Origin: Paludibaculum fermentans
GTDB taxonomy: Bacteria > Acidobacteriota > Terriglobia > Bryobacterales > Bryobacteraceae
Length of the DNA stretch: 64,000 nt
Direction: 5' to 3'
Assembly (NCBI RefSeq): GCF_015277775.1
Contig: NZ_CP063849.1
Location: 6,339,501 to 6,403,500 of the forward strand
A program made the position numbers and the translations under genes. Below the pieces are notes generated by a model that worked only from the letters and a program-made list of their open reading frames with translations, was not told where the DNA came from and searched no databases. Position 1 is the stretch's first letter. Every line of letters starts with the position of its first letter. Positions 6,126 to 25,344 of this stretch are shown here, one piece after another.

Positions 6126-6174
6126 CCATCGCCGTGATGCCCACCGGGCTGAGGGCACATCGAATCTGGCGGGG

Positions 6175-6220
6175 TGGTGGGCGGTGAGGGACTTGAACCC
6201 CCGACTTCCTGCTTGTAAGG
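6175..6220 (-). repeat. Left 46-bp attachment-site repeat (partial tRNA-Val copy)
   Basis: These 46 bases are identical to 20558-20603. Read on the minus strand they give the anticodon loop, 3' anticodon stem, variable loop, T-arm, acceptor strand and CCA of tRNA-Val(UAC). The 5' half (acceptor strand, D-arm) is absent: the sequence diverges at 6221. It cannot make a tRNA and is best read as the att site remaining after integration. Confidence 0.85.
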
Positions 6221-6378
6221 GATCAGCGCCCCTTCCAATGGCTCCTTGACATACGTCTGAATCTCAATATTTACAATAACTTGGGGAATCTGCTTCTTCG
6301 CTCGAGACAACCCAAGTGGAATCAACAGGTCGAGTTTTGGCGCAGTTCTGACACAGCGAGGTCGGTCAGATCGTTCCG

Positions 6379-7410: not shown

Positions 7411-7598
7411 GGTCTACTAGGCTTGTGAGGCCCAAGAGTCCTGAATTATGACATAGGTCAGTTGCCTATCGGGTTTCGGCATTGAACCGCAGTGCTTCCC
7501 GGGGACCGTGAAACCGGCCGCCCCTCATCCGCACTGCATCGAAGCGGCCAATCTCCGTGCAGGTCGGGGGTAACTTTTCCTTCGCGTGACGGCCCCTA

Positions 7599-9485: not shown

Positions 9486-9512
9486 CTAGATTGATTCCTA
9501 CAAAAGATTAGG

Positions 9513-9540
9513 TTGAAAACCAACCGCTTTGAGTTATACT
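9513..9540 (+). promoter_or_regulatory. Sigma70-type promoter of the kinase gene
   Basis: TTGAAA (9513-9518), a 16-bp spacer and TATACT (9535-9540) make a good sigma70 match in the 73-bp gap between the divergent activator and kinase genes. It would start transcription near 9547, just before the ATG at 9559. It also argues against the in-frame TTG at 9529, which lies inside the promoter. Confidence 0.5.
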
Positions 9541-9558
9541 CATCAAACCTCGGGCTGC

Positions 9559-12453
9559 ATGATCTCCCTGATTCAGACATTTCGAAGGTTAACACTGCGC
9601 ATCGGCACTCGCACAGAGACCGCAGTGGACAGCCCGGTCTGTCGTGATCCGGCTGCGGCCGTCGAGGTGGAAGCCCTGGGTAAATGGGGCAATTTCGTCA
9701 TTCGGGAGCAAATCGCGCAGGGCGCTTTTGGGCAAGTATATCGCGCATGGGATCCAGCGCTAGCCCGGGAAGTGGCGTTGAAGCTCTACCCGACAGTTGA
9801 CAACACGCTCAGCTCAGAAGTCGTAGAGGAGGGCCGTATGTTGGCGCGACTGCGGCATCAGAACATCGCCACAGTCTACGGCGCGGCTATTCAAGACGGT
9901 CGTGTCGGACTTTGGATGGAGCTCATCAAGGGGCAGTCGCTGGCCGAACTGCTTGCCTCACAAGGACCGATGAGTTCCAGGGAAGCCGCAGTTATTGGAA
10001 CTGACCTATGTCACGCATTGGCGACGGTTCACGCTGTGGGCCTGTTGCATCGTGACATTAAGGCTCAGAACCTGATGAGAGAAAGTGGCGGACGTATTGT
10101 CCTGATCGACTTCGGCCTCGGCGAGGACAGGAAGAAGGCGGACTTCAAGGGACAGGCCGAACTTGCCGGCACACCCTTCTATATGGCCCCAGAGCTCTTC
10201 GACGGGGAGCGCGCGAGTGTGCGCTCGGAGGTCTATTCCGTCGGCGTTCTGCTCTTCCATCTGGTATCTGGCCGTTTCCCGATTGAAGCTGACAACATCG
10301 ACGAACTGCGGAACGCCCAACGGCTGCAGCTCGTTCAGGATCTGGCGGAGCTTCGGCCTGAGCTGCCCGCGGCGTTCGTATCACTGGTCCGGCGCGCAAC
10401 GGCTCTTGATCCTACGGACCGATTTTCCAGTGTGGCTGAGCTCGCGCGACCTCTTCGAGACCTGCTCTCCGGTGAGAATCGTTTCGAGGCGGGACGTCTG
10501 CTGACCCGCCGAACCGCGATCCTCACAGCTGCCGCGGTCACGTCGGCGCTCGCCGGGATCACAGTTTGGCGTTCAAAATGGCAGGGAAGTCCGTTTCGCA
10601 CCAACCCCGGCGAGGCCCTCCTGATCAGCCCAATAGAGAACCTAACGGGCGACGCAGAACTCGATGGATTCGGAACCGCGCTGCATCAGTTCGTTTCACA
10701 GTCCGGGTTCTTCAATCTCCTGGGGGCCGACGAGATCAACAGTTCCATTGAGCGGATGGACCGGACCAAATCAGAATCTTCTCATCCCGATGTTGCGCGG
10801 GAACTAGCGCTGCGCAACGGTGCCCATATCATCGTATTCGGAAACCTGTCCCGGATTGGAGATGAGTTTGCGCTCATGCTTCGGGTGGAGAAGCTCGGCG
10901 AAGACCCGAATGCTGTTGAATCGAAACGCGACACGCGCTGGAATGCGTCGGGGAAACGGGAATTGTTCGGGGTGATCCGGGACGCGGGCAATTGGATCCG
11001 CTCCGAGTGTGGTGAAGGCGCGGATAGCATTGCCGAACGGGAGCGCGCACCGGAGGATGTCACAACCAGTTCCTGGCAAGCGCTCAAGCTCTTCGGCGTG
11101 GCGGAGAGCCTCAAGATGGCAGACAGAGGAGAGGACGCGATTGGGATTCTGAAGCAGGCCGTGCAATTTGATCCAGAGTTCACTTTGGCATACATGCGAA
11201 TTGGAGACATCCGCCTGGGTCAAGGCAACTATGATGAAGGTGAACAGTGGTGGGCGAAGGCGGTGGGCATTCTCGGGCGGCGCAGGCTTTCTGAGCGCGA
11301 GGATTTCCGCATCAAAGCAATGCTGGCTGGAGATTCCACGCAATATGCCGAGTGCGAACGCATTTATCGTGCCTATGTGGTTCGATTTCCAAACGACTGG
11401 TATGCCCATTGGCGGCATGGCAGCGTCCTGGATCACTTCGACTCCAGCAAGGAGGCCGCAGAGGAACTGAAGACCGCTGACCGGCTGCGCCCCAATACCT
11501 GGCGGATTCACGCTCAGCTCTGCGCTACCTATCTTGCCAATAGTGATTTCGGCTCGGCCATGTCTGCAGCCCAGACGCTCAGGAAGCTGAAGCAGCCGGA
11601 ATGGGCTAAGTTGTATGAAGCGCCATGCGCTCTTCTCCGGGGAGACATCCCGGCGGCGGAGCGGCTATACCTGGAACTTTACCGGTCCGAGGCAGCACAA
11701 CGTTTGGCCGTAGCGCCTATCCTGTTGGCAAGCTTCTATACCGAACTTGGCCGCCTCGAAGAGGCCATCCTGGTTCTGGACGAGAGCTTGAAGCGCGATC
11801 AAGGAGCCGTCGGGGTATCTGATATAGCCGCGCGAATGCTCTGCAAAGCCTGGATCGAACAATCCGCTGGGCGTTCCGGCGATGCCGTTCTCACGCTCCA
11901 GGCCGCGCTCGCCCGATCGGATTCCGCCGACACGCGCTTCAACGCAGGACTCCTGTACGCCCGACTCGGCCACATTTCCGAGGCTGAACGGCTGAAAGGC
12001 ACTTTCAACCCCGCACACAGATTCCAGATCAACGCGGTTGCTCCGCATCGTCTGGCTGGGGAAATTGCATTGGCACGTGGAGCCTTCGAGCGGGCCTACA
12101 GCAGTTTCGAGGCCGCGGCCGCCCACGAACCGCCCGCACATCACAAAGAGCCGCTGGCGCGCGCTTATGCAAAGGCCGGCCGTTGGGGGCGAAGTATGGC
12201 TCTTTACGATTCGATGCTGAGCCGGCCCGGCAGAATCTGCCGTTACCTGGATCAGGAAGCGCCAGGCCTCTGGATGGATAGTACTTTGCAGCACGCTTGT
12301 GTTGCCGCAGAGGCGGGAAGTATTGAGGCTGCTCGCAAATCCGTTGGTCGTTATCGTGCGGTGCGTGGAAATAAGACCACAGTTTTGACCGATCAGCTGG
12401 CCCAACGACGAGCCGAAGAATTGATTCAATCTGACACAGAAAGGTTGCGATGA
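9559..12453 (+). CDS. Membrane-anchored Ser/Thr protein kinase with TolB-like and TPR C-terminal region
   Basis: The product is 964 residues. Residues about 35-300 are a Hanks-type kinase: glycine loop (QGAFGQVYRAWD), ATP lysine (VALKLYP), catalytic loop HRDIKAQN (near residue 165), metal-binding DFG in LIDFGLG, and GTPFYMAPE. A single membrane helix follows near 316-336 (AILTAAAVTSALAGITVW). Next is a TolB N-domain-like segment (ISPIENLTGDAELDGFGTAL) and then TPR-type helices from about 480 to 900. This is a common acidobacterial layout, with a cytoplasmic kinase and a periplasmic repeat sensor. It shares a 73-bp divergent promoter region with the FHA-sigma54 activator, so FHA recognition of a kinase product is the likely link. 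It overlaps the next gene by ATGATGA. Confidence 0.92.
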   Translation: MISLIQTFRRLTLRIGTRTETAVDSPVCRDPAAAVEVEALGKWGNFVIREQIAQGAFGQVYRAWDPALAREVALKLYPTVDNTLSSEVVEEGRMLARLRHQNIATVYGAAIQDGRVGLWMELIKGQSLAELLASQGPMSSREAAVIGTDLCHALATVHAVGLLHRDIKAQNLMRESGGRIVLIDFGLGEDRKKADFKGQAELAGTPFYMAPELFDGERASVRSEVYSVGVLLFHLVSGRFPIEADNIDELRNAQRLQLVQDLAELRPELPAAFVSLVRRATALDPTDRFSSVAELARPLRDLLSGENRFEAGRLLTRRTAILTAAAVTSALAGITVWRSKWQGSPFRTNPGEALLISPIENLTGDAELDGFGTALHQFVSQSGFFNLLGADEINSSIERMDRTKSESSHPDVARELALRNGAHIIVFGNLSRIGDEFALMLRVEKLGEDPNAVESKRDTRWNASGKRELFGVIRDAGNWIRSECGEGADSIAERERAPEDVTTSSWQALKLFGVAESLKMADRGEDAIGILKQAVQFDPEFTLAYMRIGDIRLGQGNYDEGEQWWAKAVGILGRRRLSEREDFRIKAMLAGDSTQYAECERIYRAYVVRFPNDWYAHWRHGSVLDHFDSSKEAAEELKTADRLRPNTWRIHAQLCATYLANSDFGSAMSAAQTLRKLKQPEWAKLYEAPCALLRGDIPAAERLYLELYRSEAAQRLAVAPILLASFYTELGRLEEAILVLDESLKRDQGAVGVSDIAARMLCKAWIEQSAGRSGDAVLTLQAALARSDSADTRFNAGLLYARLGHISEAERLKGTFNPAHRFQINAVAPHRLAGEIALARGAFERAYSSFEAAAAHEPPAHHKEPLARAYAKAGRWGRSMALYDSMLSRPGRICRYLDQEAPGLWMDSTLQHACVAAEAGSIEAARKSVGRYRAVRGNKTTVLTDQLAQRRAEELIQSDTERLR

Positions 12454-12920
12454 TGAGTGACATAACAATAACTGGAAGCGACGCAGGCGGATCTGGCATC
12501 GATTCCTCCGCCAAGGCGGCGTTCCTATTGGCGCTGCTCGCAGATCCAGATGCCCTAAATGATCTAAAAATTCGATCAAAGTCCCAGGATGACACCCTTA
12601 TGTCCGGAGCGTATATTTTCCAGGCATACAAGGGAACCCTCCCTCAAGACTGGGAGGAAAGTTATTATAATATCGCATTTGACGAAGTTAAGCTACTGTG
12701 GCTTGCAGTCCTTAACAAGCCCGGCCTTGTAGATGCGCTCGTCACCCTCTCAGGCGCGATTACCGGCTGTAACACGCGACCAGTCTGCAAGATGCTTGTG
12801 CGTGATTGTATTGTCCCAATGCTTGTAGGAGCCGGATTTGACTCCAAGATAAAAGAGGTCTACTATAATCGGGTTGAGCTGGCACATGGTCCATATCCCA
12901 CAACAATCCGATCAAAATAA
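12450..12920 (+). CDS. Hypothetical protein, translationally coupled to the kinase
   Basis: The product is 156 residues (155 if the second ATG at 12453 is used). I do not recognise the family. It has an acidic, Gly/Ser-rich N-terminus, a helical middle (SAKAAFLLALLADPDALNDL), and a C-terminal half with three cysteines (GCNTRPVCKMLVRDC). No signal peptide or obvious membrane span is seen. It overlaps the kinase stop in an ATGATGA junction, so it should be made with the kinase and may be its substrate or a modulator (inference only). The DNA is more A/T-rich than the kinase gene, suggesting separate origin. Confidence 0.7.
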   Translation: MMSDITITGSDAGGSGIDSSAKAAFLLALLADPDALNDLKIRSKSQDDTLMSGAYIFQAYKGTLPQDWEESYYNIAFDEVKLLWLAVLNKPGLVDALVTLSGAITGCNTRPVCKMLVRDCIVPMLVGAGFDSKIKEVYYNRVELAHGPYPTTIRSK

Positions 12921-13496
12921 CTGCATTGGCATAATGTCTTTGGTTCTGTAGGTAGCGCAGCCTACTTGCTCTAGCGATGACATTGGTCACTAGTAGTGTG
13001 AGGCGGGGCATCTGGGACGGGGTCAAGGAAAGTCAGCTACCTTGCCTATCGTGGCAATAATCTAAGGCAGCAACTCGTGCGGATCCTATTCTCCCTGGAT
13101 GCCCTCCGCCAATTATTCCGTTTTCTTTCGGAGTCTTGATTACGCCACCAAGCCCCCAATCCTTTGATGGCGCAACCTACACCCACACTCTTAACCTCAA
13201 TAGACTCGCGAACCTCGAATGGGGGTCAGACGGACGGGGGAGAGACGTGCTCCCTACAATTAGGCTTCGGCGCCGTTTTGTTTTCGCACCGGGATCGCGC
13301 CCGCACCACACCCAAGTAGGCCAAGACTTGCCTGTGGGAGGTGTGCCCTGCCTCGGACAGCCGTGCCGCAATCATGAAGTTAGTTGGGTTGGCGAGTTTG
13401 CGCGATCTCGACTGCACGTGGATGGCAGCGCTGGGTTGGACGACTGGCTTGCGCCTTGTGTGCGTCCCTGCGCGGTTGCGACTCGTCGAGACAAGC
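12921..13496. other. Island intergenic stretch without a supported gene
   Basis: These 576 bases hold only short overlapping frames with no recognisable domain or start signal. A minus-strand frame at 13226-13534 has a fragment faintly like a tyrosine-recombinase tail (see rejected list). A weak inverted repeat GTAGG-N8-CCTAC occurs near 12949-12966. It may be decayed sequence between island genes. Confidence 0.5.
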
Positions 13497-14318
13497 CTAA
13501 GTTGCGAAATTATGAGAGGACTTAGGCAAGGCATATCCGTCTGGAACGAAGTAGAAGGAATCTAGCCTTTGGCCTTTCTCCATGGGATTCTGGTAAGGGT
13601 CAGTAATGTATCGACCTCTTGATGTATCTCGGGTCGGAGGCGAGTCAATGTTCTTAGAAGACCAATATCCATCGCTGTCGAGCCTCGTGAAATGATATAC
13701 ACTCATTCCCTTTAGATACAGGGCGATATAATGACCGCGCCCAGAAGGGCGCATATCAACATCCCACGGGATAAGCTTGAATTCTTTCAAGCCACACTTA
13801 TAACGCTCACCGGCATCACCCTGTTTACACTTGGAAGCGATGGAGCCTATCGGATTGATACTTCTATTTATCTTTAGGTTGAGAGCATAAACAAAGCAAT
13901 TCGCACGGGGAAAACCTTTCCACTCGTCCGGCTCAAAATCAGGCGCACCGACAACGCTTTTCGGATATTCCGGCGAAAGAAGTCCTAGCAAGTCGACTCT
14001 CGTCGCTTTCAGGGATGTAAATATCTCCGACGGGGCCGAATGCAGGATGGCGCTTTCAAGGCCTGCCGCGATCCGGATGGTATCATCCTCGCTGGATAGG
14101 AATCCGAAGCGCAGGATGTAGGATTTTTGACCAAAATGGATCTTCAGTCCGTTATAGCCAAGACTCTTGCATCCACGGATCGGGGTACGGGCATACGAAG
14201 GCACACAGTTCGACAGTCGGAGTATTTCCTCCAGCCGAGAAAGATTGCCTTGTGACAGCTCCCACGAGACACCTGAGTAGAGGTTTTTGTCGAGTAATGC
14301 AGCGGTCCCTTTTTTCAT
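13497..14318 (-). CDS. Hypothetical protein, possible cysteine-peptidase-like fold
   Basis: From the ATG at 14318 the product is 273 residues; a longer frame from 14378 is possible but adds a hydrophobic, basic stretch without support. Residues 135-150 (GFPRANCFVYALNLKI, Cys141), a GRGHYIALYL strand (His196), YHFTRLDSDGYWSSK (His209) and ITDP (Asp240) give the order Cys...His...Asp typical of papain-like/NlpC-like peptidases or transferases. No named family can be assigned. No signal peptide from this start. It is alone on the minus strand between plus-strand island genes, in visibly A/T-rich DNA. An effector or toxin role would be a guess. Confidence 0.6.
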   Translation of the reverse strand: MKKGTAALLDKNLYSGVSWELSQGNLSRLEEILRLSNCVPSYARTPIRGCKSLGYNGLKIHFGQKSYILRFGFLSSEDDTIRIAAGLESAILHSAPSEIFTSLKATRVDLLGLLSPEYPKSVVGAPDFEPDEWKGFPRANCFVYALNLKINRSINPIGSIASKCKQGDAGERYKCGLKEFKLIPWDVDMRPSGRGHYIALYLKGMSVYHFTRLDSDGYWSSKNIDSPPTRDTSRGRYITDPYQNPMEKGQRLDSFYFVPDGYALPKSSHNFAT

Positions 14319-14720
14319 AGTCAAATATCTTAGCACGATTTCTCTGTGCCATCGCAGGAAAATCAAGTAAAACCTCAAGTACTTGGTGCGTGCGCGTGCG
14401 ACCTCCGAAGAAGAGCCTGTCTCGTATCTGATCGCGGCGTTTGGATAAAGCGACCACAGGGGCTTTGCGGGAGTATCCGCTCGAGCATCACTGGTATCTG
14501 TTTAGATACCACCACACTCGCCTTATGACCTGTAGCAGATTGAAAACAAACTGAAAGCGATTCGGCGCATCACCTGCACCAGTTGCTCCTGTAATCGGAG
14601 GGCCGAAGGTGATTGGATCTGCCCAATCGCAGGGCCGGTGCCAGTTCGGTACTGTGCCCAACACTCCTCCGATTGCCGGGACCACAACGGTACCCGAATC
14701 CGAACGCAGGAGCTGACGTC
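14319..14720. other. Divergent intergenic region
   Basis: About 400 bases separate the minus-strand Cys-protein gene from the plus-strand exported-protein gene. It contains the inverted repeat at 14492-14511 and the ribosome-binding site AGGAG at 14707-14711. No supported ORF or RNA gene is seen. Confidence 0.5.
14492..14511. promoter_or_regulatory. Perfect 7-bp inverted repeat in the divergent region (possible operator)
   Basis: TGGTATC-TGTTTA-GATACCA is a perfect palindrome with a 6-base centre. It is about 174 bases upstream of the minus-strand gene start and 209 upstream of the plus-strand start. No T-run follows, so it is not an intrinsic terminator; an operator is more likely. Confidence 0.35.
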
Positions 14721-16274
14721 ATGTTCAAACTGCTGTCCATTTCTGTGCTGACTCTCGTGCTGCCACTCGCGGCTCAACCCCGAGGTTCAGTAAACAACGG
14801 AAAGACAGGGACCAACCCAAACTGCAAAGGAAGAGACGTGTGCATTGATGCCGCCACGGGTGCCAGTTTCGGCGAGTCAATATTTCGGCGATACGACAAC
14901 GTCACGATTCTTCTTTATAACAAGAACCCATTTTGTTGCACCTACAGACTCTCACAAAGTACTAAGGTCATCGGTGAATCAACTGCCCCGGACTTCCTCC
15001 GAACCTTCTTCCCAGTGGTCGCCAAAGAGGACGACAAGAAAGAGGCCACCGCTAGTCTCAACACCCTGAGAACGGAGATGCTGGAGGTGAAAGAACTACA
15101 AAGAGATGACCCCGGCAAGGCGCAGAAGTTGTTGAACCTCTATAAAGACACGACAGAACGACTGGAGGCAGCCAGCAGAGACGCATTCACCAACATGGAG
15201 AAGGCGGACGATGCAATGAGGACCTACACCGATCAGTTGGCGCTCCTTCGGCGACCTGATCTCGGGCAAACCGCAGCGACCTGCTCAGCGCGGATCGTGC
15301 AGAGGATGGCCGCCCATAACCTTTTGCCCCAATGCTCTCCTAACGTTCAGCCAGCTCCGCCGGTTGTGGACCTCCAAGTGAGCTGCGACAAATTGAACTC
15401 TGCTGTACGTGACATTGACTCAAACTATGGGCGTCTTAACAGCGAAATCAAGCAGTTACTAGGAGGCCCTGCAGTAACATCGCAACCAGAACAGACTGCT
15501 ACCATTCGTGCGCTTACCGGATGGCAAGCGAAACTACCTAACGACCTCGCCGAAAGAAAGGCGGCGGCAGAGAAGCTACTAAAAGCGCTTGAGCGCACTC
15601 TAGCTAACTACAAAAAGGCGCATTCTGAGATGGTTGCCAATAGTCAGATCTTTGCCGCCTTTCTCAGCGACGAGACCTCGTTCGCCCAGGAGGCGACGAT
15701 CTCACGCGACGACACCCATGGCCGGATGGTAACCGTCACTCTCGAGGTTGCCGCACCCGACGACAAAGGCAAGCTGGGCGACCTAACCAAGAAGCTGACG
15801 CTCAACATCCAGATGGGCTACCAAGTGATGACAGTGTCCGCCGGACTCGCCGGCTCGCCCATGAAGAAGGCCCAGTATAACGCCGTCACCACCACCGTCA
15901 AGGACGCCAATGGCCAATCCACTACCACGAACACCGTCGGCATTCAGTCGAATTCGCCCCGGCTGCTTCCCATGATTCAACTCAACGCCGACCTCTTCGA
16001 TTTCTCGTCGCGTCGGTTGCCCGTGTCTCTCAACGCCAGTCTCGGGCTGACTGGCAAGGTCGACAACCAGGGCACCGATGTCGAGTTCCTTCTCGGTCCC
16101 TCGCTCGGATTTCTCGGAAATCAGCTCTTCGTCACTGTCGGCGCCTATGGCGGCCGCCAGCAGGTCCTCCAGGGCGGTCTGAGTGCCGGCAGCATAATCC
16201 CATCCACGACGGTACCGGTTGCCAAGAACCTCCAATGGGGTCTCGGCTGGTCCCTGACCTGGAAGATCAAGTAA
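14721..16274 (+). CDS. Exported protein with helical middle and predicted C-terminal outer-membrane beta-barrel
   Basis: The product is 517 residues. I chose ATG 14721 because AGGAG lies nine bases upstream and the frame opens on a signal peptide (MFKLLSISVLTLVLPLAAQ). Residues about 90-320 are charged and helical (coiled-coil-like stretches such as EAASRDAFTNMEKADDAMR), with six or more Cys spread through the N-terminal half. The last 200 residues alternate polar and hydrophobic strands, end in WGLGWSLTWKIK, and look like a beta-barrel with a C-terminal closing strand. Family not recognised. It heads a run of four same-strand genes (gaps of 36, 13 and 37 bases), so it may export or anchor the product of the downstream enzymes; that is inference. 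Confidence 0.75.
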   Translation: MFKLLSISVLTLVLPLAAQPRGSVNNGKTGTNPNCKGRDVCIDAATGASFGESIFRRYDNVTILLYNKNPFCCTYRLSQSTKVIGESTAPDFLRTFFPVVAKEDDKKEATASLNTLRTEMLEVKELQRDDPGKAQKLLNLYKDTTERLEAASRDAFTNMEKADDAMRTYTDQLALLRRPDLGQTAATCSARIVQRMAAHNLLPQCSPNVQPAPPVVDLQVSCDKLNSAVRDIDSNYGRLNSEIKQLLGGPAVTSQPEQTATIRALTGWQAKLPNDLAERKAAAEKLLKALERTLANYKKAHSEMVANSQIFAAFLSDETSFAQEATISRDDTHGRMVTVTLEVAAPDDKGKLGDLTKKLTLNIQMGYQVMTVSAGLAGSPMKKAQYNAVTTTVKDANGQSTTTNTVGIQSNSPRLLPMIQLNADLFDFSSRRLPVSLNASLGLTGKVDNQGTDVEFLLGPSLGFLGNQLFVTVGAYGGRQQVLQGGLSAGSIIPSTTVPVAKNLQWGLGWSLTWKIK

Positions 16275-16310
16275 CCGCGGAACCTTTCCCTAACTCCACC
16301 ACGAGGCCAC

Positions 16311-17297
16311 ATGCTCCGCGACTCTCGCTTTCACATCGCGGGCTGCGCATCCGCCCTGCCCCGGACCGCGGTCCCCAATGCCGTTCTCGCTCGCGAACTT
16401 GAAACCGATGAAGATTGGATCGAGTCGCGATGCGGAATCCGCAACCGATATCGCACCTCTCCTGAGGAGACAACGCTCTCCCTGGCTGTCAGCGCCGGCC
16501 GAGCTCTCCTTGACGAGCAGCCGGACTTCTGGCCGGATCTGCTGCTCTGCAGCACGTTCACGCCGGAGCACCTTCTTTGCCCGACGGCCCCAGCCATTGC
16601 GGAACAGCTCCGCCTGGGGCCCATCGGGGCCTTCGACCTCAACGCGGCCTGCACCGGAGCCGCGTTCGGGTTCCTAACGGCCTTCGGCTTTCTCGCCTCC
16701 GGACTGGCCAGCAAGGTCCTCCTGGTCGCGAGCGATACGCCCACCAAGTACCTGGCCCAAGATGATCGGAGCACGCGGATCCTGATGGGCGATGGAGCCG
16801 CGGCCGTAGCCCTGGAGCAAGGCGGCGCCGCCGGCTCCCGTGTGCTGAGCTGGCTGACCGGCAGCGATGGTTCAGGCGCTCAAAACTTCTTTGTGCCCCA
16901 CGGTGGCTCCCGCTACCCGCAATCCATTCAGCATGGCGCGACCCGGAGTTTGGCGGTCCAGATGGACGGAAGGGCCATCTTCCGTTTTGCCGTCAGCGCG
17001 GGTGCTGCGATGCTGAAACGGCTCTGTGAGCTGGCTGGCGTCACCCCTGCAGAGGTGACCTGGGTGATTCCGCATCAAGCGAACCTGCGCATTCTCGACG
17101 CGCTCCAGCAGCAGTCCGGCATCCCACCCGACCGGTGGGTGATCAATATCGGGGCCGTGGGCAACACGGCCTCAGCGTCAATCCCAATCGCCCTGGCCGA
17201 GTGTATGGCCAGCGGGCAATTCCGTAAGGGCGATCTCGTTTTGATCGCTGGATTCGGAGCCGGTCTCACCTGGGCCGGCTTCCTACTGGAGTGGTGA
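16311..17297 (+). CDS. 3-oxoacyl-ACP synthase III (KAS III/FabH-like)
   Basis: The product is 328 residues, the usual FabH length. It condenses an acyl-CoA starter with malonyl-ACP. The triad is intact: Cys near 114 in LNAACTGAAFG, His near 255 in IPHQANLRIL, Asn near 285 in GAVGNTASASIP. The FabH-type end GFGAGLTWAGFLLEW is present. The frame starts after GAGG with four bases to ATG. Lying between an exported protein and an acyltransferase plus ammonia-lyase, rather than with fabD/fabG/acpP, it is more likely a dedicated pathway enzyme than the housekeeping FabH. DarB-type ketosynthases of dialkylresorcinol clusters are one precedent for KAS III enzymes paired with ammonia-lyases. Confidence 0.92.
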   Translation: MLRDSRFHIAGCASALPRTAVPNAVLARELETDEDWIESRCGIRNRYRTSPEETTLSLAVSAGRALLDEQPDFWPDLLLCSTFTPEHLLCPTAPAIAEQLRLGPIGAFDLNAACTGAAFGFLTAFGFLASGLASKVLLVASDTPTKYLAQDDRSTRILMGDGAAAVALEQGGAAGSRVLSWLTGSDGSGAQNFFVPHGGSRYPQSIQHGATRSLAVQMDGRAIFRFAVSAGAAMLKRLCELAGVTPAEVTWVIPHQANLRILDALQQQSGIPPDRWVINIGAVGNTASASIPIALAECMASGQFRKGDLVLIAGFGAGLTWAGFLLEW

Positions 17298-17310
17298 GAG
17301 GAACAACTCG

Positions 17311-18231
17311 ATGGTTCAGAAACAGACACAAGCCCGCACTGCGCGCGCTCCCTGGCGCAAGGCCGCGTTTGCCGCGATCTCCCTGCTTTACTTGTCGCTA
17401 ATCTACGGCGCTCCAGCCCTCCTATTGAGTCTGCTACTTCGTGCCTGGCCGGGATCATTCTGGCGGTTGGGGTGTGCTTTCGCTGGTCCCGTCCTCTATA
17501 GTGTCGGATTCCTCGTAACGGCCGGCTGCTTGAGCCTGTACCACCAGCCCGCGATCGTGCCGGGGCGCTTCCCTCGCGACACCGCCCATCCAGTCTATTT
17601 CCACAGGCGGCTCTACGGACTCTGTTGGACCACATTGTTCTACTGCAAACCGGTCTATTCGCTCTGCCTGGCCGTACCCTTACTGAAACGACTGATGTTC
17701 CGCCTGTTCGGTTATCGCGGGGGCATGAACTTCACCGTGTATCCCGATAGCTGGATTCGAGATCTGCCGCTATTGCGTTTCGGCGACGGCGTCTATATCT
17801 CGAACCGCGCCACCTTGGGCACGAACATCGCACTGGCCAGCGGCCACATCCTGGTCGACCGCATCGAACTGGAGGACGGCGCGATGGTGGGCCACCTCGC
17901 CATGCTCGCCCCTGGAGTGCGGCTGGGCCGGCGAGCCGAGATTGCAGTTGGCTGTGCCATCGGAATTGGCTCCGTCATTGGCGACGGCGCCAAGGTGCTT
18001 CCGACCTGCACCGTCGAGCACGGTGTTGTGATGTCGGCTCGCGCCGTTGCGGGCACGATGAGCTACCTAGGCAACAAAGCCTTCATCGGGCAGGGTGTGC
18101 AACTGGCACCTGGCACGTTGCTGACACGTCGAAGCATCGTTACCAGCAGGCACGATGCTGACGCCTACATCTCTTCCACAACTCGAATTAGCGGCACGCT
18201 CGCTTCCGCGGAGGCTCTCGATGACGAATAG
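17311..18231 (+). CDS. Membrane-anchored left-handed beta-helix (hexapeptide) acyltransferase
   Basis: The product is 306 residues. Two or three hydrophobic helices occupy residues about 17-75 (AAISLLYLSLIYGAPALLL, LYSVGFLVTAGCLSLY), then a hydrophobic patch near 100-130. From about 140 to 285 are hexapeptide-type turns (FGDGVYISNRATLG, LEDGAMVGHLAMLAPGVRLG, IGIGSVIGDGAKV). It resembles the C-terminal membrane/beta-helix module of multidomain Pls-type proteins (general knowledge). The acyl acceptor is unknown. It begins 13 bases after the KAS III gene, suggesting the KAS III product, or an acyl chain derived from it, is transferred at the membrane. Confidence 0.8.
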   Translation: MVQKQTQARTARAPWRKAAFAAISLLYLSLIYGAPALLLSLLLRAWPGSFWRLGCAFAGPVLYSVGFLVTAGCLSLYHQPAIVPGRFPRDTAHPVYFHRRLYGLCWTTLFYCKPVYSLCLAVPLLKRLMFRLFGYRGGMNFTVYPDSWIRDLPLLRFGDGVYISNRATLGTNIALASGHILVDRIELEDGAMVGHLAMLAPGVRLGRRAEIAVGCAIGIGSVIGDGAKVLPTCTVEHGVVMSARAVAGTMSYLGNKAFIGQGVQLAPGTLLTRRSIVTSRHDADAYISSTTRISGTLASAEALDDE

Positions 18232-18268
18232 TGCGTTGTGTTCGGAACTGGGATCCGAGGAGGAGCCG

Positions 18269-19786
18269 ATGCTCACTTTGACGGGCGAGCTGTTACGGCC
18301 AGACGAACTGTGGCGATTCTGCAGGGAGGCGGCTTCCGCGGAAAGCCTATCCATTGAACTGAGCCCCGCCGCCTGGTCTCGCATCGAAGCGGCGGGTGCG
18401 TTCGTCGACCGGTTAGTGGAGTCCGGTGAACGCATTTATGGCGTGAATACCGGCGTGGGCTTTCTACGGAACGTTGTCATTGATCGAGACCGGCTGTCGG
18501 AACTGCAGAAGAATCTGATCCGGTCGCATTGCTGTGGCGTGGGTGAGGAGCTGCCCCGTGCGCTCGTCCTAGCCATGTGGGTCATCGTACTGAACTCGGC
18601 TTGTCGCGGGCACCGGGGGCTGCGGCGACCAACGGTGGAGGCGGCGTTGAAACTACTACAGCATGGGATCTTGGGGTGCGTGCCAGCGCGCGGCAGCGTC
18701 GGCGCTTCCGGTGATCTGGCTCCTTCCGCGCACGCGGCCCTCGCCTTGATCGGGGAAGGGCCATGCACCGTGGTGCGTCAAGGAGAGACCCTTCGAATCC
18801 CGGCTGCACAGGCCCTCGCCGAAGAAGGCTTGCTACCTGCGGACCTCCAACCAAAGGAGGGACTCAGCCTCATGAACGGTACGCAGATGACGACGGCTAT
18901 GGCGGTGTCCGTCTGGTCTGAGGCGAAGAATCTGCTGGAGACTGCCAATCTGGCGACGGCGCTCTCTCTCCTTGGTGTCAAGGGATTCCCATCCGTGTCG
19001 CCAGAGGAGCTATTGATTGCCCACGGCCACCCAGGAACCTTGGAGTGTGGGCGGATGATTCGGGAGTGGCTCCACGATCCCGTACGCCCGATTCACGAGC
19101 CGGATCATCAGCAGGATCCCTACTGCCTCCGCTGCGCGCCGCAAGTTCATGGCGCAGTCCTCGAAGAAGTGGAAGCTACGGAGACGATCCTGGTGAGGGA
19201 GTTGAACTCCTCGGCCGACAACCCCTTGGTCTTCGCAGATCTCGGCAAGGTAGCGCATGGCGGGAACTTCCATGCAATCCAGCCGGCACGCGTCTGTGAT
19301 CGCCTGGCCTCAGCGCTGACGACGCTGGCCGCGATCTCGGAGCGACGCGTCAATCTTGCAATGAATGGCGACCGCACCGGCCTGCCGCATTTCCTGATCT
19401 CTGAGGGTGGACTGAACTCGGGCTTAATGATGGTGCAAACCACCGCGGCGGCTCTCGTAAGCGAGTGCCGGTCATTGAGCTTCCCTGCCAGCACAGACAG
19501 CATCCCCACGAACTGCGACCAGGAAGACCATGTGTCTATGGGACCCATTGCGGCGTTGAAGGCAATGCGAGTTGCTGAAAATGTCCGGTACGTGCTGGCC
19601 ATAGAGCTCCTCACCGCCATCCAGGCGATCGACCTGCGGAAGGTGGAACATCTGCCGCCACGGACCGCGGCCGCCCACCGGATGCTGCGCGAATGTGCGG
19701 ACTTTTTGGCTCAGGATCGGGTGAACTCGCACGACATCGAGGCCATTGCAGCCCTAATAGAGTCAGGCAAACTCTCTCGGTGCTAA
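18269..19786 (+). CDS. MIO-dependent aromatic amino acid/histidine ammonia-lyase (HAL/TAL family)
   Basis: The product is 505 residues from ATG 18269; ATG 18221, overlapping the previous gene by 11 bases, would add 16. I prefer 18269: AGGAGGAG lies just upstream and the N-terminus aligns with the family (LTG..L, then YGVNTGVG). The prosthetic-group triad Ala-Ser-Gly is at 146-148 in GSVGASGDLAPSAH. Also present are NLIRSHCCGVG (Ser-His selectivity pair, found in HAL and in some TAL), YCLRCAPQVHG, and NCDQEDHVSMG. The enzyme removes ammonia from His, Tyr or Phe; substrate is not decided by sequence. No hutU, hutI or hutG is near, so histidine catabolism is unlikely. The KAS III and acyltransferase neighbours favour making an aryl or urocanyl building block. 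Confidence 0.9.
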   Translation: MLTLTGELLRPDELWRFCREAASAESLSIELSPAAWSRIEAAGAFVDRLVESGERIYGVNTGVGFLRNVVIDRDRLSELQKNLIRSHCCGVGEELPRALVLAMWVIVLNSACRGHRGLRRPTVEAALKLLQHGILGCVPARGSVGASGDLAPSAHAALALIGEGPCTVVRQGETLRIPAAQALAEEGLLPADLQPKEGLSLMNGTQMTTAMAVSVWSEAKNLLETANLATALSLLGVKGFPSVSPEELLIAHGHPGTLECGRMIREWLHDPVRPIHEPDHQQDPYCLRCAPQVHGAVLEEVEATETILVRELNSSADNPLVFADLGKVAHGGNFHAIQPARVCDRLASALTTLAAISERRVNLAMNGDRTGLPHFLISEGGLNSGLMMVQTTAAALVSECRSLSFPASTDSIPTNCDQEDHVSMGPIAALKAMRVAENVRYVLAIELLTAIQAIDLRKVEHLPPRTAAAHRMLRECADFLAQDRVNSHDIEAIAALIESGKLSRC

Positions 19787-20557
19787 CGGGATCAGTGACG
19801 CTCCGGGGGCTGCATCAAAACCACGGCAATACCCATAAGAGCCCACCTAAGTCCAACCAGGTGACCGAGTGTTTATGCGCCTGATCCGGTTATTTTCACG
19901 CAGTGCAGGAGAGGCTGCGAAGTAGAATGAGCAGCACTGCATCTTGGCGGAGCTTGGCACTCTTGAATTGGGGTTGGCCCGCCGAATCGGAGTCTCCCGG
20001 ACTCACTGGGCAGTGGAGCAATGGCGATTCCGGAGAGCGGCCCTCAAAAGCTGCCAACAGTCGGAGTCTGATAGACGGAAACTCACAGATTCGTTGGCGT
20101 CTTCCGGCGCTATTCCCATTCCAGACCGAATTGCAGGTTTGTGCCACAGGATCGAGTTCCATTTGCGTTGTGACACAGTGAACTACCGGATCCAGTGGTG
20201 GCAGAGGCATGTAGAAGGGCCAACTCGTCTGGAATCCGATCTTTGGGGTCGGAATCTGCAAGCGTCGATTGTTTGACCTCCTGCTATGAGGGCATGCGGT
20301 CGCGGGCAGGATTCCATGATCGACTGCACGGACAAAGCGAGGTCGGTTCGCGCGCCGTATTGCATTTATTCTATTGGCTTTACCCGCGGCTCTCATAGCA
20401 TCAAAGCCACGGTCCAGAGCTTTTCTGTTGTCACAGTTGTAACGAGCAACGGCTGACAAACTGGCCCAAGCACCGTGTTTTTGAGGGGTTTTGACACAGT
20501 CCTGCTGTGCCCGGGAGAGAGCCTCGAACGACTAACAGGTGTAGAATCAACCAGTTA
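19787..20557. other. Right end of the island, no supported gene
   Basis: These 771 bases lie between the ammonia-lyase and tRNA-Val. Frames on both strands (for example 19944-20276 plus, 19896-20459 minus) overlap one another, lack ribosome-binding sites and show no domain. An integrase is often found here in tRNA islands; none is recognisable, although a decayed one cannot be excluded. Confidence 0.5.
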
Positions 20558-20603
20558 TGGTGGGCGGTGAGGGACTTGAACCCCCGACTTCCTGCTTGTA
20601 AGG
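20558..20603 (-). repeat. Right 46-bp attachment-site repeat (3' half of the intact tRNA-Val)
   Basis: It is identical to 6175-6220. It starts exactly at the encoded CCA end of the tRNA and runs to the 5' strand of the anticodon stem, the usual crossover zone of tRNA-targeting tyrosine recombinases. Confidence 0.85.
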
Positions 20604-20634
20604 CAGGCGCTCTAACCAGCTGAGCTAACCGCCC
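20558..20634 (-). tRNA. tRNA-Val(UAC)
   Basis: The minus strand folds as a complete cloverleaf. The acceptor GGGCGGT pairs with ACCGCCC, followed by discriminator A and an encoded CCA. The D-arm has GCTC/GAGC with AGCTGGTTA; the anticodon stem CCTGC/GCAGG encloses loop CTTACAA (anticodon TAC, reading GUA Val); the T-arm contains GGTTCAAGTCC. It is 77 bases with CCA. It is also the integration target of the neighbouring island, whose insertion kept the gene intact. Confidence 0.97.
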
Positions 20635-20672
20635 GCAACTTTTATCTTACCGCGTACGGGCCCGGCGGCCAA

Positions 20673-21692
20673 TCAGTTGCCGATGTAGCGGGAATACAGG
20701 CTGCGGGCCAGGCCTGGATCCTGCGTCCCCTTGATGATCGCCCGTCCGTCCGGGAAAATCGTCATCTCATACGGCTGCACGACAAAGCGGAGTGCGAAGC
20801 CGTTCGACCGGACCTGCCCCAACGGCGACAGGCTGGCGGCAAGCGCATCGAGGTCCAGCGGGCGGCGGCGGTCGTGGATCTGCACCGCGTTGCGGCCGCA
20901 GAGGCTGATGGGTACACGGTCTTCGCCGTGCAGATGGCGGCAGGTGCGCGCTCCTCCGCACGCGGGACAGGCGGGATCCGCTGAGGGCATGGCTACCTGG
21001 CGGATGACACCGGTCCAGGCATCGAAGGTCGAGATGCGGGGCTCCACTTCCTGGCCGCAGAGCAGGCGCAGGGCCAGCGAGACCTGCCAGGACGCCACCA
21101 GACTTGTGATGGTATTCAGCACACCGGCGGTGTCGCAGGTGGGTTGGGCTCCGCTGGGCGGTTCCGGGTAGATGCACTCGAAACAGGCGGATCGACCGGG
21201 CAGGATCGGCATGGCGAGGCCATAGGTCCCCACGGCTCCACCATAAATCCACGGTATGGCGCGGTCGACGGCGTAGTCGTTGAGCAGATACCGGGTTTCG
21301 AAGTTGTCGGTACCGTCCAGGATGAGCGAGGCGGGCTGCAACAGGTCGTGGATGTTGCCCGCGGTCAGGTCGTCCACCAGGGCCTCGGCTCGGACGCCGG
21401 AGTTGATCCGGCCAATGGCACGGGCGGCGGCCACCGCTTTGGGTAGAGCTTCGCGGGCATCGGCTTCCTCATAGAGCCATTGGCGCTGCAGGTTGCTGAG
21501 TTCGACGAAGTCGCGGTCAACCAGCAGGATGCGGCCGACGCCAGCGCGGGCCAGGGCGCCGGCGTGGAAGGCGCCCAGCGCTCCACAGCCGACGACGGCA
21601 ACACAGGCGTCGAGCAGAAGCTGTTGGCCTGGTGCGCCGATGCCGGGCAAAAGGATCTGGCGGCTGTAGCGGTCGCGCTCGGAATCAGTCAT
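20673..21692 (-). CDS. ThiF/MoeB/HesA-family sulfur-carrier adenylyltransferase
   Basis: The product is 339 residues. The E1-like Rossmann fold begins YSRQILLPGIGAPGQQLL and has the nucleotide loop GCGALGAFHAGALARAG. Also present are the DRD..ELSNLQRQ segment and the catalytic aspartate in LDGTDNFETRY. Zinc cysteines occur as CFEC and CPAC. The enzyme should adenylate the C-terminal glycine of a ThiS- or MoaD-like carrier. Residues 265-339 (SLCGRNAVQIHDRR through YSRYIG) form an extra C-terminal domain in place of rhodanese. No carrier gene adjoins; moaA is 35 kb away. ThiF versus MoeB cannot be decided. It is divergent from the Omp85 gene, 42 bases away. Confidence 0.88.
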   Translation of the reverse strand: MTDSERDRYSRQILLPGIGAPGQQLLLDACVAVVGCGALGAFHAGALARAGVGRILLVDRDFVELSNLQRQWLYEEADAREALPKAVAAARAIGRINSGVRAEALVDDLTAGNIHDLLQPASLILDGTDNFETRYLLNDYAVDRAIPWIYGGAVGTYGLAMPILPGRSACFECIYPEPPSGAQPTCDTAGVLNTITSLVASWQVSLALRLLCGQEVEPRISTFDAWTGVIRQVAMPSADPACPACGGARTCRHLHGEDRVPISLCGRNAVQIHDRRRPLDLDALAASLSPLGQVRSNGFALRFVVQPYEMTIFPDGRAIIKGTQDPGLARSLYSRYIGN

Positions 21693-21734
21693 CAGTCAAA
21701 ATCGTAGCAACCAAGGCTGTTAAGATGACAGTGT

Positions 21735-24671
21735 GTGACTCAGCCTAGGCTCTGGACGGCATTGCTGACGTGTCTGTTGGCGGGTGCGGCTCCAATGTGG
21801 GGCGGTGAAGACCTGTCGCCTTTTTACGGCAAAACGATTGAGTCGATCCGGTTCGAGCCTGAGAAACAACCTCTTTCCAACGAACAACTTGCGCTGTTGA
21901 TTGGGCTGAAGGCCGGCGACACGCTGGCCGAACTGCCACTCAGCAAGGCCATTGAACGGCTGTGGACGAGCGGCCGCTACGTTGATATTGTGGCCGAAGG
22001 CGAGGCGAAGGGCGCCGGAGTTGAGCTTACCTTCGTCACAACCTGGGCCTCCTTCGTCAGCCGCGTGACCGTTGAGGGTGTGCCCGAACCGCCCAATCCG
22101 GCTCAGTTGACCAACGCCACAAAGCTGGGTCTCGGCGACCCCTTCGAGGACAGCTTGCTGCCGGGCGCGGAGAGCAGCCTCCAGGATGTGCTGCGCAACA
22201 ACGGCTTCTACACCGCGACGATCCGGCATGAGACCAGCTCGCGGCCCGAGACGGAGGAGACCGACATCCGGTTCTACATCCAGCCGGGTCCTCGCGCCAA
22301 ACTGACCAGGCCGGTCTTTGAAGGTGAGCCGGCGATGAGCGAAAAAAAGCTTATCCGGCTGACGAACTTCCAGCGCTGGTACGGCTTGCGCGGCTGGAAA
22401 GACATGGACGGCCGGCGGGTGCAGCGCGCGGTGGAGAAGATGCGCGACGCGTATCTGAAGACAGAGCACCTGGAAGCCACCATCCGCATCGCCTCGGTAG
22501 ACTACGATCCAAAATCCATCACCGTCACGCCGCACTTCCTGATTCATGCGGGCCCCAGCGTGTTCGTGAAGACGGAGGGAGCGAAGATTTCCAAGGGCCA
22601 GTTGCGCAGACTGCTGCCGATCTATCAGGAGCGCACGGTGGACCGCGAATTGCTTCTGGAAGGACAGATGAATCTGGAGCGCTACTTCGAGGCCCAGGGC
22701 TTCTACGACGCGAAGGTCACATACTCGCTGGCCGACCCGACGCCCGAAGGCGCGCAAACCATCCAGTTCCGCATCCAGAAGGGCCCACGGTACCGCCTGG
22801 TTCACTTGGATGTCGGCGGCAACAAGTACTTCGACCAACAGACCATCCGCGAGCGTCTGGGGATGATCCCAGCCCGTTTTCCGCGCTACCGCCGCGGCCA
22901 GTTCAGCCAGCAACTGATGGAACAGGATGAAGCCTCGATCCTGGATCTCTATCGCTCGAACGGCTTCCGCGATGCGGAAGTGAAGTCGGTCGTGGAACGC
23001 GGCTTCAAGGGGAAAGCGACTGACCTGGGCGTGACCCTGGCGATCACCGAAGGCGCCCAGTGGTTCGTCACGGACCTGGAATTGACTGGCGTCGATCTTC
23101 AACTTCTGGACGTCATCAAGGCATTTCTCGCCTCCACACCGGGGCAGCCCTACTCCGTGGCGAGCGTAGCCGCCGATCGGGACAACGTTCTCAATTGGTA
23201 CTTCAACAACGGCTACCCGGACGCCACCTTCGACGCGTCGGTGGTGGTGGCCGACGAACCCAATCGAATCATCTTGAAATACGCCGTGACGGAAGGCCGC
23301 CGCAATTTTGTGCGCGACATCCTGGTCAGCGGCTTGAAGGCCACACGCCCGGACCTCGTGAACCATCGGTTGGCGGTGGCGCCAGGGCAGCCGCTGTCGC
23401 AGGGCAGCATCGTCGAGACACAGCGGCGGTTGTACGATCTCGGTATCTTCGCCAAGGTCGACGTCGCCGTTCAGAACCCGGACGGCCGTGAGCGCGACAA
23501 GTATGTCCTGCTGCAGGTGGAAGAGGCCAAGAAGTACTCGCTGAATCTCGGCTTCGGCGCCGAGTTCGGGCGCATCGGCGGCGGCAGCAATAGTTTCGAT
23601 TCGCCGGCCGGAGCTTCCGGCTTCTCACCGCGAGGGCAGATCGGCCTGACGCGCTCGAACATCTTCGGGCTGGCGCATACCGCCAGCGCCACCATCCGAG
23701 TGTCCAGCATCCAGCAGCGCCTGTTGGCCAGCTACCTGGCTCCGCAGTTCCTGGGAAACGAGAATTTCAATCTCACCTTCAGTTCGCTGGTTGACCGTTC
23801 GCGTGACGTGCGCACCTACACTTCAAACCGTTCGGAGAGCTCGGTTCAGTTGGGCCAGAAGGTGAGCCGCGGCATTACGATGCAGTATCGTGCGACGGCG
23901 CGCTTTGTCTTCATCGACAGGAATTCCCTGAAGATTGACCCGACCCTGATTCCCATCTACTCTCAGCCGGTGAAGACGATCGCCGCCTCCGCTTCCTTCA
24001 TCCAGGACCATCGTGACGATCCGCTGGACGCGCGCCGCGGCTTCTACAACACGCTGGACGCGGGCTATGCCGTGCCGTTCTCCGGAACAAGCACCAACTA
24101 CTTCCGCCTGGTGGCGAAGAATTCGACCTACCATCCGCTGCGCCGTGAAGTCGTGATCGCCCGGACCACCTCGTTCGGCTGGCTGCACAACCTGGACAAT
24201 GAACCCGTGCCGCTGCCCGAAAACTTCTATGCCGGCGGCGCCTCCACCCATCGCGGCTTCCCTGATAACCAGGCCGGCCCGCGCGATCTGGTTACCGGCT
24301 ACCCCATCGGCGGGGCGGCTTTCCTGTTCTTCCAGCACGAACTGCGCTTCCCGCTGGTTGGCACCAATCTGACCGGCGTGCTCTTCCACGACATGGGCAA
24401 CGTGTTCTCGTCCTTCGATAACATCTCGTTCCGCTACCGTCAGAAGAACCAGCAGGATTTCGACTACACAGTGCAGGCGATGGGCTTCGGCTTCCGCATC
24501 AAAACGCCGGTGGGCCCCCTGCGGCTGGATTTGGCCTATGCTCCGAACACTCCGCGATTCGTGGGTTTCGTGGGCAGCCGCGACGATCTGATCAACGGCA
24601 CGGGGCAATATAACGTGCCGCAACGGGTGAGCCGCTTCCAGTGGCATTTCTCCATCGGGCAGGCCTTCTAA
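21735..24671 (+). CDS. Omp85-family outer membrane assembly protein (BamA/TamA type)
   Basis: The product is 978 residues. A GTG start leads into a signal peptide (LWTALLTCLLAGAAPMWG). About 570 residues follow that can hold roughly seven POTRA-like repeats (for example YGKTIESIRFEPEKQPL, FVSRVTVEGVPEPPNPAQL, RYRLVHLDVGGNKYFDQQ, NFVRDILVSGLKATRPDLV). The barrel starts near 597 (KKYSLNLGFGAEFG). The lid-loop arginine motif is present (GGASTHRGFPDNQAGPRD), and the chain ends in FQWHFSIGQAF with a C-terminal aromatic. It is longer than classical BamA (about 800). The SurA-like protein and TamB directly downstream suggest a TamA-like partner role, though BamA function is equally possible. Confidence 0.93.
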   Translation: MTQPRLWTALLTCLLAGAAPMWGGEDLSPFYGKTIESIRFEPEKQPLSNEQLALLIGLKAGDTLAELPLSKAIERLWTSGRYVDIVAEGEAKGAGVELTFVTTWASFVSRVTVEGVPEPPNPAQLTNATKLGLGDPFEDSLLPGAESSLQDVLRNNGFYTATIRHETSSRPETEETDIRFYIQPGPRAKLTRPVFEGEPAMSEKKLIRLTNFQRWYGLRGWKDMDGRRVQRAVEKMRDAYLKTEHLEATIRIASVDYDPKSITVTPHFLIHAGPSVFVKTEGAKISKGQLRRLLPIYQERTVDRELLLEGQMNLERYFEAQGFYDAKVTYSLADPTPEGAQTIQFRIQKGPRYRLVHLDVGGNKYFDQQTIRERLGMIPARFPRYRRGQFSQQLMEQDEASILDLYRSNGFRDAEVKSVVERGFKGKATDLGVTLAITEGAQWFVTDLELTGVDLQLLDVIKAFLASTPGQPYSVASVAADRDNVLNWYFNNGYPDATFDASVVVADEPNRIILKYAVTEGRRNFVRDILVSGLKATRPDLVNHRLAVAPGQPLSQGSIVETQRRLYDLGIFAKVDVAVQNPDGRERDKYVLLQVEEAKKYSLNLGFGAEFGRIGGGSNSFDSPAGASGFSPRGQIGLTRSNIFGLAHTASATIRVSSIQQRLLASYLAPQFLGNENFNLTFSSLVDRSRDVRTYTSNRSESSVQLGQKVSRGITMQYRATARFVFIDRNSLKIDPTLIPIYSQPVKTIAASASFIQDHRDDPLDARRGFYNTLDAGYAVPFSGTSTNYFRLVAKNSTYHPLRREVVIARTTSFGWLHNLDNEPVPLPENFYAGGASTHRGFPDNQAGPRDLVTGYPIGGAAFLFFQHELRFPLVGTNLTGVLFHDMGNVFSSFDNISFRYRQKNQQDFDYTVQAMGFGFRIKTPVGPLRLDLAYAPNTPRFVGFVGSRDDLINGTGQYNVPQRVSRFQWHFSIGQAF

Positions 24672-24675
24672 CGCC

Positions 24676-25344
24676 ATGCTGAGACGCGCGCTAACGATAC
24701 TGGTGCTGGCCGGCAGCCTGCGGGCTGAAAAGGTCGTGCTCGACCGCGTGGCGGCGGCGGCCGGGCAGCAGGTAGTGACGCTCAGCGCCATCCGGCGGCA
24801 CCTGCGCATCCTGGCGCTGGTCGACAACAGCCCGCTGGAAGATACACCCGAGGCGCGCCGCAAAGCGGCCGACCGGCTCATCGACCAGGCGCTCATCCAT
24901 CGCGAAATCGAGCTCAGCCGGTATGCCGCGCCCACGCGAGCTGAAGCCGAGGCGCGCATCCAGGATTTCATCAAGCAGCGCAACGTGACACAGCAGCAGT
25001 ATGAGGCCCTGCTGGCTCGCTACGGTTTCAACGAGGACGACTTCACGGCGGAAGTGCTGTGGCGTATCAGTGTGACGCGCTTCATCGACTTCCGGTTCTC
25101 ACCGGGCGTCCAGATCTCCGACGACGAGATCAAGAAATACTACACCAGCGAATTCGTGCCGCAGTTCCGTCGGCGGGCCCCCGACGCGCCCACACCACCG
25201 CTGGACGACGTGCGCGATCAGGTTGCCCAGGTGCTGATGCTCCGCAAGACCAACTTAGCTGTGGATCAGTGGCTGGCACAGATGCGGGCGACCGTGAAGG
25301 TGCGTTACTTCGACGCCGTGCTGGGCGCGGAGGCGAGTAAATGA
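24676..25344 (+). CDS. SurA N-terminal-domain periplasmic chaperone-like protein lacking a PPIase domain
   Basis: The product is 222 residues. A short signal sequence (MLRRALTILVLAGSLRA) is followed by the SurA/PpiC N-terminal helical pattern (DRVAAAAGQQVVTLSAIRRH, then AADRLIDQALIHREIE). No parvulin domain follows; the C-terminus (RDQVAQVLMLRKTNLAVDQWL) matches the usual closing helix. It presumably escorts outer-membrane proteins to the Omp85 protein encoded four bases upstream. It overlaps the TamB gene by ATGA. Confidence 0.82.
   Translation: MLRRALTILVLAGSLRAEKVVLDRVAAAAGQQVVTLSAIRRHLRILALVDNSPLEDTPEARRKAADRLIDQALIHREIELSRYAAPTRAEAEARIQDFIKQRNVTQQQYEALLARYGFNEDDFTAEVLWRISVTRFIDFRFSPGVQISDDEIKKYYTSEFVPQFRRRAPDAPTPPLDDVRDQVAQVLMLRKTNLAVDQWLAQMRATVKVRYFDAVLGAEASK

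Follow-up and report, generated by a model that had tools for sequence, protein, structure and literature searches.

The window analysed here, a 64,000-nucleotide stretch of Paludibaculum fermentans DNA (G000:C1:6339501-6403500) within a 9.53-Mb genome, contains at a tRNA-Val gene a segment that, by its attL- and attR-like ends, is a genomic island of ~14.4 kb (6175-20603) with four genes as cargo. These encode a predicted exported protein, a ketoacyl-acyl carrier protein synthase III (KAS III), a membrane protein with hexapeptide repeats of the left-handed beta-helix (LbH) type, here called HexAT, and a histidine ammonia-lyase (HAL). We propose, tentatively and at somewhat less than an even chance, a mobile module in which HAL would make urocanate for, or alongside, the membrane acylation of an exported product by HexAT. 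Half of this proposal we infer; what the sequence itself shows is where the island ends, that the lyase bears the HAL signature and is a second copy, and that the HexAT-HAL pair recurs.

The lyase has the sequence of a histidine ammonia-lyase and is predicted to act on L-histidine. P. putida HAL ranks first among solved structures in a phmmer search (328 bits), and the triad that forms the methylidene-imidazolone (MIO) cofactor (A146-S147-G148, Ala-Ser-Gly) is present together with the HAL residues Tyr57, His87, Asn203, Gln282, Tyr285, Arg288, Phe334 and Glu419. Motif 1 is a Ser86-His87 dyad, as in HAL; the Ser-His dyad is given as a HAL feature in a passage of PMC11432326 that also lists the HAL active-site residues. 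Because FlxA, a proven tyrosine ammonia-lyase (TAL), is HAL-like at motif 1 according to an excerpt of PMC3992019, the dyad alone is no proof of HAL. At the second selectivity site the window lyase has the HAL-type Glu419; according to the same excerpt, this position was invariably Glu in HAL, and it was Gln in TAL and phenylalanine ammonia-lyase (PAL), FlxA included. Model scores point the same way: NCBIfam PRK09367 gives 532.2 bits (above its cut-off of 524) and TIGR01225 hutH 521.9 bits (below its cut-off of 539.15), against 325 bits for the Tyr aminomutase model and 302.7 bits for the FlxA model (cut-off 700), so that HAL models lead by about 200 bits. Neither mark of a flexirubin-type TAL/PAL, a Gln at the second site or a TAL model match, was found.

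Because the host has a native HutH (C1:7650856; 669.6 bits to PRK09367) and hutU-hutI (C1:4846k) elsewhere, we regard the island lyase as a second, foreign copy. Some lyase match occurs in 28 of the 61 genomes searched, and a lyase search of genome contigs retrieved eight related loci, seven of them (L003, L005-L010) with urocanase within the fetched stretch and one (L004) without. A tree of 36 rows, two of which are the same window lyase, was built after matches with fewer than 380 aligned residues and duplicates had been left out; in it the lyases of the window, L003, L004 and L010 form one clade (support 100/100) that excludes the host's native HutH, with the window lyase pairing with L004 (99/94) and L003 joining L010 weakly (86/56). 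The selectivity sites over these rows read Ser-His/Glu in 30 (window lyase counted twice), Asn-His/Glu in one, His-Leu/Gln in three (L034, L035, L037), and Phe-Leu/Gln in one (L036); the remaining row (L031) has Ser-His but lacks the second site. L034-L037, MIO lyases of related genomes with Gln at the second site, are candidates for TAL/PAL- or aminomutase-like enzymes. On plasmids, 858 of 72,556 records match the lyase, all below 60% identity; among the 15 listed, 12 are labelled hutH and three are unlabelled.

HexAT lies directly upstream of a lyase in all three genomes found to hold it, one of which belongs to another phylum. Since L003, L004 and L010 were first found via the lyase, the weight of this pairing is limited to what the later HexAT samples cover. 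These overlapping samples were drawn with a three-row profile at E <= 1e-15, and HexAT was found rarely, and at paired loci throughout: in two of 399 genomes of the class (the window genome and G057), one of the two genomes of the G057 order, one of 395 genomes of the phylum of G770 and one of 176 of its order. Up to five first-look candidates were scored per genome in the phylum, class and G770-phylum searches, and 13 in the G770-order search, so occurrences may have been missed. A search at E <= 1e-5 was positive for HexAT in two of the three genomes tested and negative in that of L010. Identity is 53-55% among the paired lyases and 41-48% among the paired HexAT proteins. Read by eye, a candidate lyase start at L004 shares ATGA with the HexAT stop, and the lyase start at L003 overlaps HexAT by 8 or 14 bases.

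The neighbours of the pair are exporter-like at one locus and, at another, of lipid type together with catabolic genes. L004, which appears to be contig C53 of G057 (same class as the window genome), has HexAT and HAL followed by DevC-, DevA- and DevB-like genes, and hut reference proteins gave no match in the 17 kb covered there; G057 carries a second lyase on C17 and hutU-hutI on C72. On the plus strand of L003, a FabK-/FabI-like open reading frame (ORF) precedes HexAT, HAL, HutU (881 bits) and HutI (288 bits, cut-off 298), with 4-base overlaps between the genes after HAL. Its minus strand carries a KAS that, read by eye, seems to be without the active Cys, a FabA-like gene and the start of another ketosynthase, divergent from the FabK/FabI-like gene that immediately precedes HexAT; the locus fills a contig of 9,169 bases that breaks off at either side. 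L003 2301-3677 joins a FabK-like (NMO) N-terminal and a FabI-like C-terminal part in one frame, either two enoyl reductase families in one ORF or an assembly join in a metagenome-assembled genome (MAG). L010 comprises a HutF-like gene (HutF_N 23.6 bits, cut-off 25), HutI, HAL, HutU and a gene that, from its start sequence, we take to be HutG.

Of the Pfam and NCBIfam models, the generic Hexapep model of Pfam is the one whose cut-off HexAT exceeds (47.5 bits, cut-off 27). The family consists of the window protein and those of L004 (48% identity) and L003 (41%), and the alignment of these three shows long conserved stretches upstream of the hexapeptide repeats and, in three sequences only, invariant His78, His195 and His237. 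Two hydrophobic stretches (residues ~18-46 and ~53-76) bear out the membrane part of the preliminary description, and the repeats its hexapeptide part. Sequence matches are mostly LbH acyl-/acetyltransferases, and it is from the repeats and these weak family matches that we infer acyl transfer itself, a property of the fold family; HexAT is thus a putative membrane acyltransferase. The best match in the PDB is QdtC (45 bits), and no close relative has been solved. Some weak matches are carbonic anhydrases; a gamma-carbonic-anhydrase identity was set aside, since the spacing of the invariant His residues does not match the Zn motif of that family. A phylum search matched 107 of 396 genomes at E <= 0.001, with at most 42.2 bits outside the window genome, and these matches were taken as generic LbH proteins. 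No match was obtained on plasmids at E 1e-5, and 81 pattern matches in viral contigs contained no relative.

The extent of the island follows from the perfect recurrence of the last 46 bases of tRNA-Val at its left end (Table 1). Both features of a tRNA-integrated island are present, the 3' end of the tRNA being directly repeated on either side and the homology to relatives breaking off at the tRNA: when window 8000-26000 was compared with five same-genus genomes, long homology began at 20541 (G002), 20545 (G006), 20557 (G007, G008) and 20673 (G004), with only short scattered alignments to the left of these points. The G+C content is 58.1% inside (6221-20557) against 64.2% on the left (1-6174) and 62.9% on the right. 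Among the island ORFs scanned there is no integrase of its own, and a RepA-type initiator is present instead; its plasmid relatives number 403 records, and the eight listed are all labelled RepA at 26-32% identity. The island looks like an integrated plasmid or a mobilised element. Since four Phage_integrase ORFs within ~6 kb adjoin the left side of the same tRNA-Val in G006 (L094 13132-18856), the site appears to be an insertion hotspot. In G002 the left flank is conserved again ~3.5 kb from the tRNA, matching window position -1098, so the stretch from -1098 to 6174 is also unshared with G002 there.

All four cargo genes lie on the plus strand with gaps of 36, 13 and 37 bases, taking 18269 as the lyase start, so the tight same-strand row first described is confirmed. 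Lyase starts at 18221 or 18155 would overlap the 3' end of HexAT; by eye, GGAGG lies upstream of both 18221 and 18269, and alignment with the L010 lyase favours the latter. The KAS III gene has both Pfam domains (ACP_syn_III and ACP_syn_III_C) and the lyase Lyase_aromatic at 518 bits, with active-site residues in each; both enzymes had been noted as complete. Recurrence of all four genes in other genomes, also envisaged, was not borne out: the full row was seen in the window genome only, and we call it operon-like with a recurrent core of HexAT and HAL alone.

Table 1. Features of the island and its integration site (window coordinates)
Feature	Position	Strand	Basis
attL-like repeat of the 3' end of tRNA-Val	6175-6220		46 bp, 100% identical to 20558-20603 (blastn)
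Island-borne replication initiator, plasmid RepA type	6379-7410	+	RepA_C 38.5 bits, RPA 31.4 bits
Predicted exported protein, no assigned family	14721-16274 (ORF start also 14613)	+	No Pfam match
KAS III, FabH-like paralogue	16311-17297	+	Pfam, NCBIfam, triad residues
HexAT, membrane hexapeptide (LbH) acyltransferase-like protein	17311-18231	+	Pfam Hexapep, hydrophobic stretches
HAL, predicted second histidine ammonia-lyase copy of the genome	18269-19786; alternative starts 18221, 18155	+	
attR-like site, last 46 bases of tRNA-Val	20558-20603		blastn
tRNA-Val(tac), integration site	20558-20634 (Rfam 20561-20634)	-	

The KAS III has Cys114, His255 and Asn285, presumably the FabH catalytic triad. 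It scores 294.6 bits with the FabH-type model PRK09352 (cut-off 249), 237.9 bits with TIGR00747 fabH (cut-off 292.1) and 49.3 bits with the DarB model, and is FabH-like rather than DarB-like. It is one of three matches in its own genome, and 56 of the 61 genomes have a match, at no more than 41% identity apart from the query itself. The exported protein begins with a hydrophobic, signal-like stretch and matched only its own genome among the 61, with no match in the 60 relatives or, at E 1e-3, on plasmids; AlphaFold2 without an alignment gave a pLDDT of 34, too low for a fold call, which leaves the barrel or outer-membrane character first suggested conjectural. Elsewhere in the island (7599-12453), genes for a FHA-GAF-sigma54 activator and a TPR-repeat Ser/Thr kinase are divergently arranged and may form a signalling pair that controls the cargo. 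PADLOC had no match for the four genes and the kinase and sigma-54 matches were taken as generic domains, and a defence-system role was rejected. Two island ORFs of low G+C (48-49%; 12450-12920 and 13497-14378) matched nothing in Pfam, PHROGs or PADLOC. A 143-bp element at 13185-13327 has 11 further matches in the same-genus G006 (74-83% identity, some partial) but occurs just once in the window and its preceding 40 kb.

In the proposed module, a foreign island of 14.4 kb would have inserted at the tRNA-Val 3' end and brought in a row with the HexAT-HAL core. The lyase would convert L-histidine to urocanate and ammonia, and HexAT, at the inner membrane, would transfer an acyl chain to an acceptor; the FabH-type KAS III next to it may start that chain. 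The histidine product could be a precursor of the acceptor or serve to modify it, and the product, once acylated, would pass to the envelope or out of the cell, in L004 through a DevBCA-like pump and in the window perhaps with the help of the exported protein. This acylation module is favoured by the recurrence of the pair, by the lyase being a second copy and by neighbours of lipid type; the hut genes next to the L003 and L010 lyases speak for plain catabolism, in which the island lyase would be a spare HutH feeding the host hutU-hutI, HexAT a passenger, and the KAS III and exported protein unrelated cargo. This catabolic role is a serious possibility that we rank second, and the two remain close readings. 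Urocanase at seven of the eight related loci, the HexAT-HAL-HutU-HutI row of L003, the L010 lyase in a hut cluster without HexAT and the hutU-hutI of the host all fit it. It sits less easily with a host that already has a native HutH (as does G057, with its second lyase and hutU-hutI), with L004, where exporter-like genes rather than hut matches follow HAL, and with an adjacency kept at such identities, which a passive passenger explains poorly. Alternatively, HexAT might not be an acyltransferase at all, serving instead as a left-handed beta-helix protein in the membrane with a scaffolding, anchoring or regulatory role for the lyase. The distance to any solved structure and the lack of an established catalytic residue leave room for this, which we consider quite unlikely given that most sequence matches are LbH acyl-/acetyltransferases and that exporter- or fatty-acid-type genes adjoin.

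Several observations weigh against the acylation module. The pair is known from three genomes only, two of them MAGs, and its other neighbours differ, with no constant pathway; HexAT-paired lyases are not shown as a single lineage in the tree, where L003 joins L010. At L003 the pair runs straight into hutU-hutI, and L010, in the same clade, has a hut cluster in a genome where HexAT was not found, as plain catabolism predicts. All three Dev-like genes of L004 score below curated NCBIfam cut-offs (DevC 89.5 against 290, DevA 233.5 against 295.8 and DevB 101.8 against 129 bits). The acyltransferase function of HexAT is drawn from its fold family, its AlphaFold2 model from the three-row alignment is poor (pLDDT 52), and Foldseek with that model gave no matches at E <= 0.001. 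The weakest link is the step from urocanate to product, for which no candidate activating enzyme appeared among the ORFs scanned.

The preliminary description had favoured an aryl-acyl pathway, in which the lyase makes a cinnamate or coumarate starter, the KAS III extends it and the acyltransferase fixes it in the envelope. Aryl polyene, flexirubin and dialkylresorcinol clusters contain a coenzyme A (CoA) ligase, an acyl carrier protein (ACP), a ketoreductase, a dehydratase and several ketosynthases. Among the island ORFs scanned there is one KAS III and none of the other four, which agrees with the earlier remark that ACP, ketoreductase and dehydratase are missing. An ammonia-lyase beside a KAS III and an acyltransferase-like gene, and the ketosynthase, FabA-like and KAS genes near the L003 pair, would suit an aryl product, and the Ser-His dyad does not by itself exclude a TAL, as FlxA illustrates in the excerpt of PMC3992019. 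Glu at motif 2, where that excerpt gives Gln for TAL/PAL including FlxA and where L034-L037 do have Gln, together with the lead of the HAL models, the hut genes adjoining related lyases and the absence of a CoA ligase among the ORFs scanned, makes the aryl pathway very unlikely, and the FabH-like character of the KAS III adds to this. In our reading, the module is not cinnamate- or coumarate-primed. Two outcomes had been named beforehand as speaking against the aryl idea, a failure of the four genes to co-occur elsewhere and a lyase near true HutH with hut genes in relatives, and these are largely what was found. Of the acyl group fixed in the envelope, the aryl nature is not supported, and the acylation and envelope parts keep some footing in the recurrence of the pair in two other genomes beside DevCAB-like or ketosynthase/FabA/FabK-FabI-like genes.

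HAL is known as a catabolic enzyme. If the acylation module is real, a second HAL travelling with a membrane acyltransferase family beside lipid or export genes would mean a biosynthetic use of histidine. That the pair is found again in two further genomes, next to genes of lipid or export type, hints at a product of the envelope that is linked to histidine and has yet to be studied. Going further, one may imagine envelope lipids or lipopeptides derived from histidine as a class not seen before, with urocanate built into an acylated product by a new family of membrane LbH acyltransferases, type II fatty acid synthase (FAS II) or FabH-type enzymes, DevBCA-like export and a core moving between phyla on islands; this is speculative and improbable. 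For cluster mining, the caution is that proximity to a ketosynthase does not on its own make an ammonia-lyase the starter enzyme of an aryl polyene, and Glu or Gln at the second selectivity site offers a quick first test.

The enzyme classes involved are known; the open-licence literature searched (titles and beginnings of abstracts) yielded no description of the HexAT-HAL pairing or of the HexAT family. DevBCA is the exporter of heterocyst glycolipids, and its NCBIfam models are the best ones for the three genes after HAL in L004; the likeness is limited by scores below curated cut-offs, by an unassigned substrate at L004 and by the absence of such genes from the window island. With the LbH acyltransferases LpxD, LpxA and QdtC and the terminal domain of the Pls/PosA nonribosomal peptide synthetases, HexAT shares hexapeptide repeats and weak sequence matches, and differs in its two N-terminal hydrophobic stretches and long conserved pre-repeat part. 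The flexirubin cluster of Chitinophaga pinensis, with the TAL FlxA, the CoA ligase FlxY, several KAS, reductases and dehydratases in the excerpt of PMC3992019, likewise brings together an MIO lyase with a HAL-like motif 1 and ketosynthases, a combination echoed by the ketosynthase and FabA-like genes of L003; here, in contrast, motif 2 has Glu rather than Gln, the KAS III does not resemble DarB, the ORFs scanned included no CoA ligase, and hutU-hutI adjoin the L003 pair. The closest counterpart is P. putida HutH (PDB 1GKM), with which the window lyase aligns over nearly its whole length, including the MIO triad and all active-site residues, and from which it differs in belonging to a divergent clade, in being island-borne and a second copy, and in its pairing with a membrane LbH protein.

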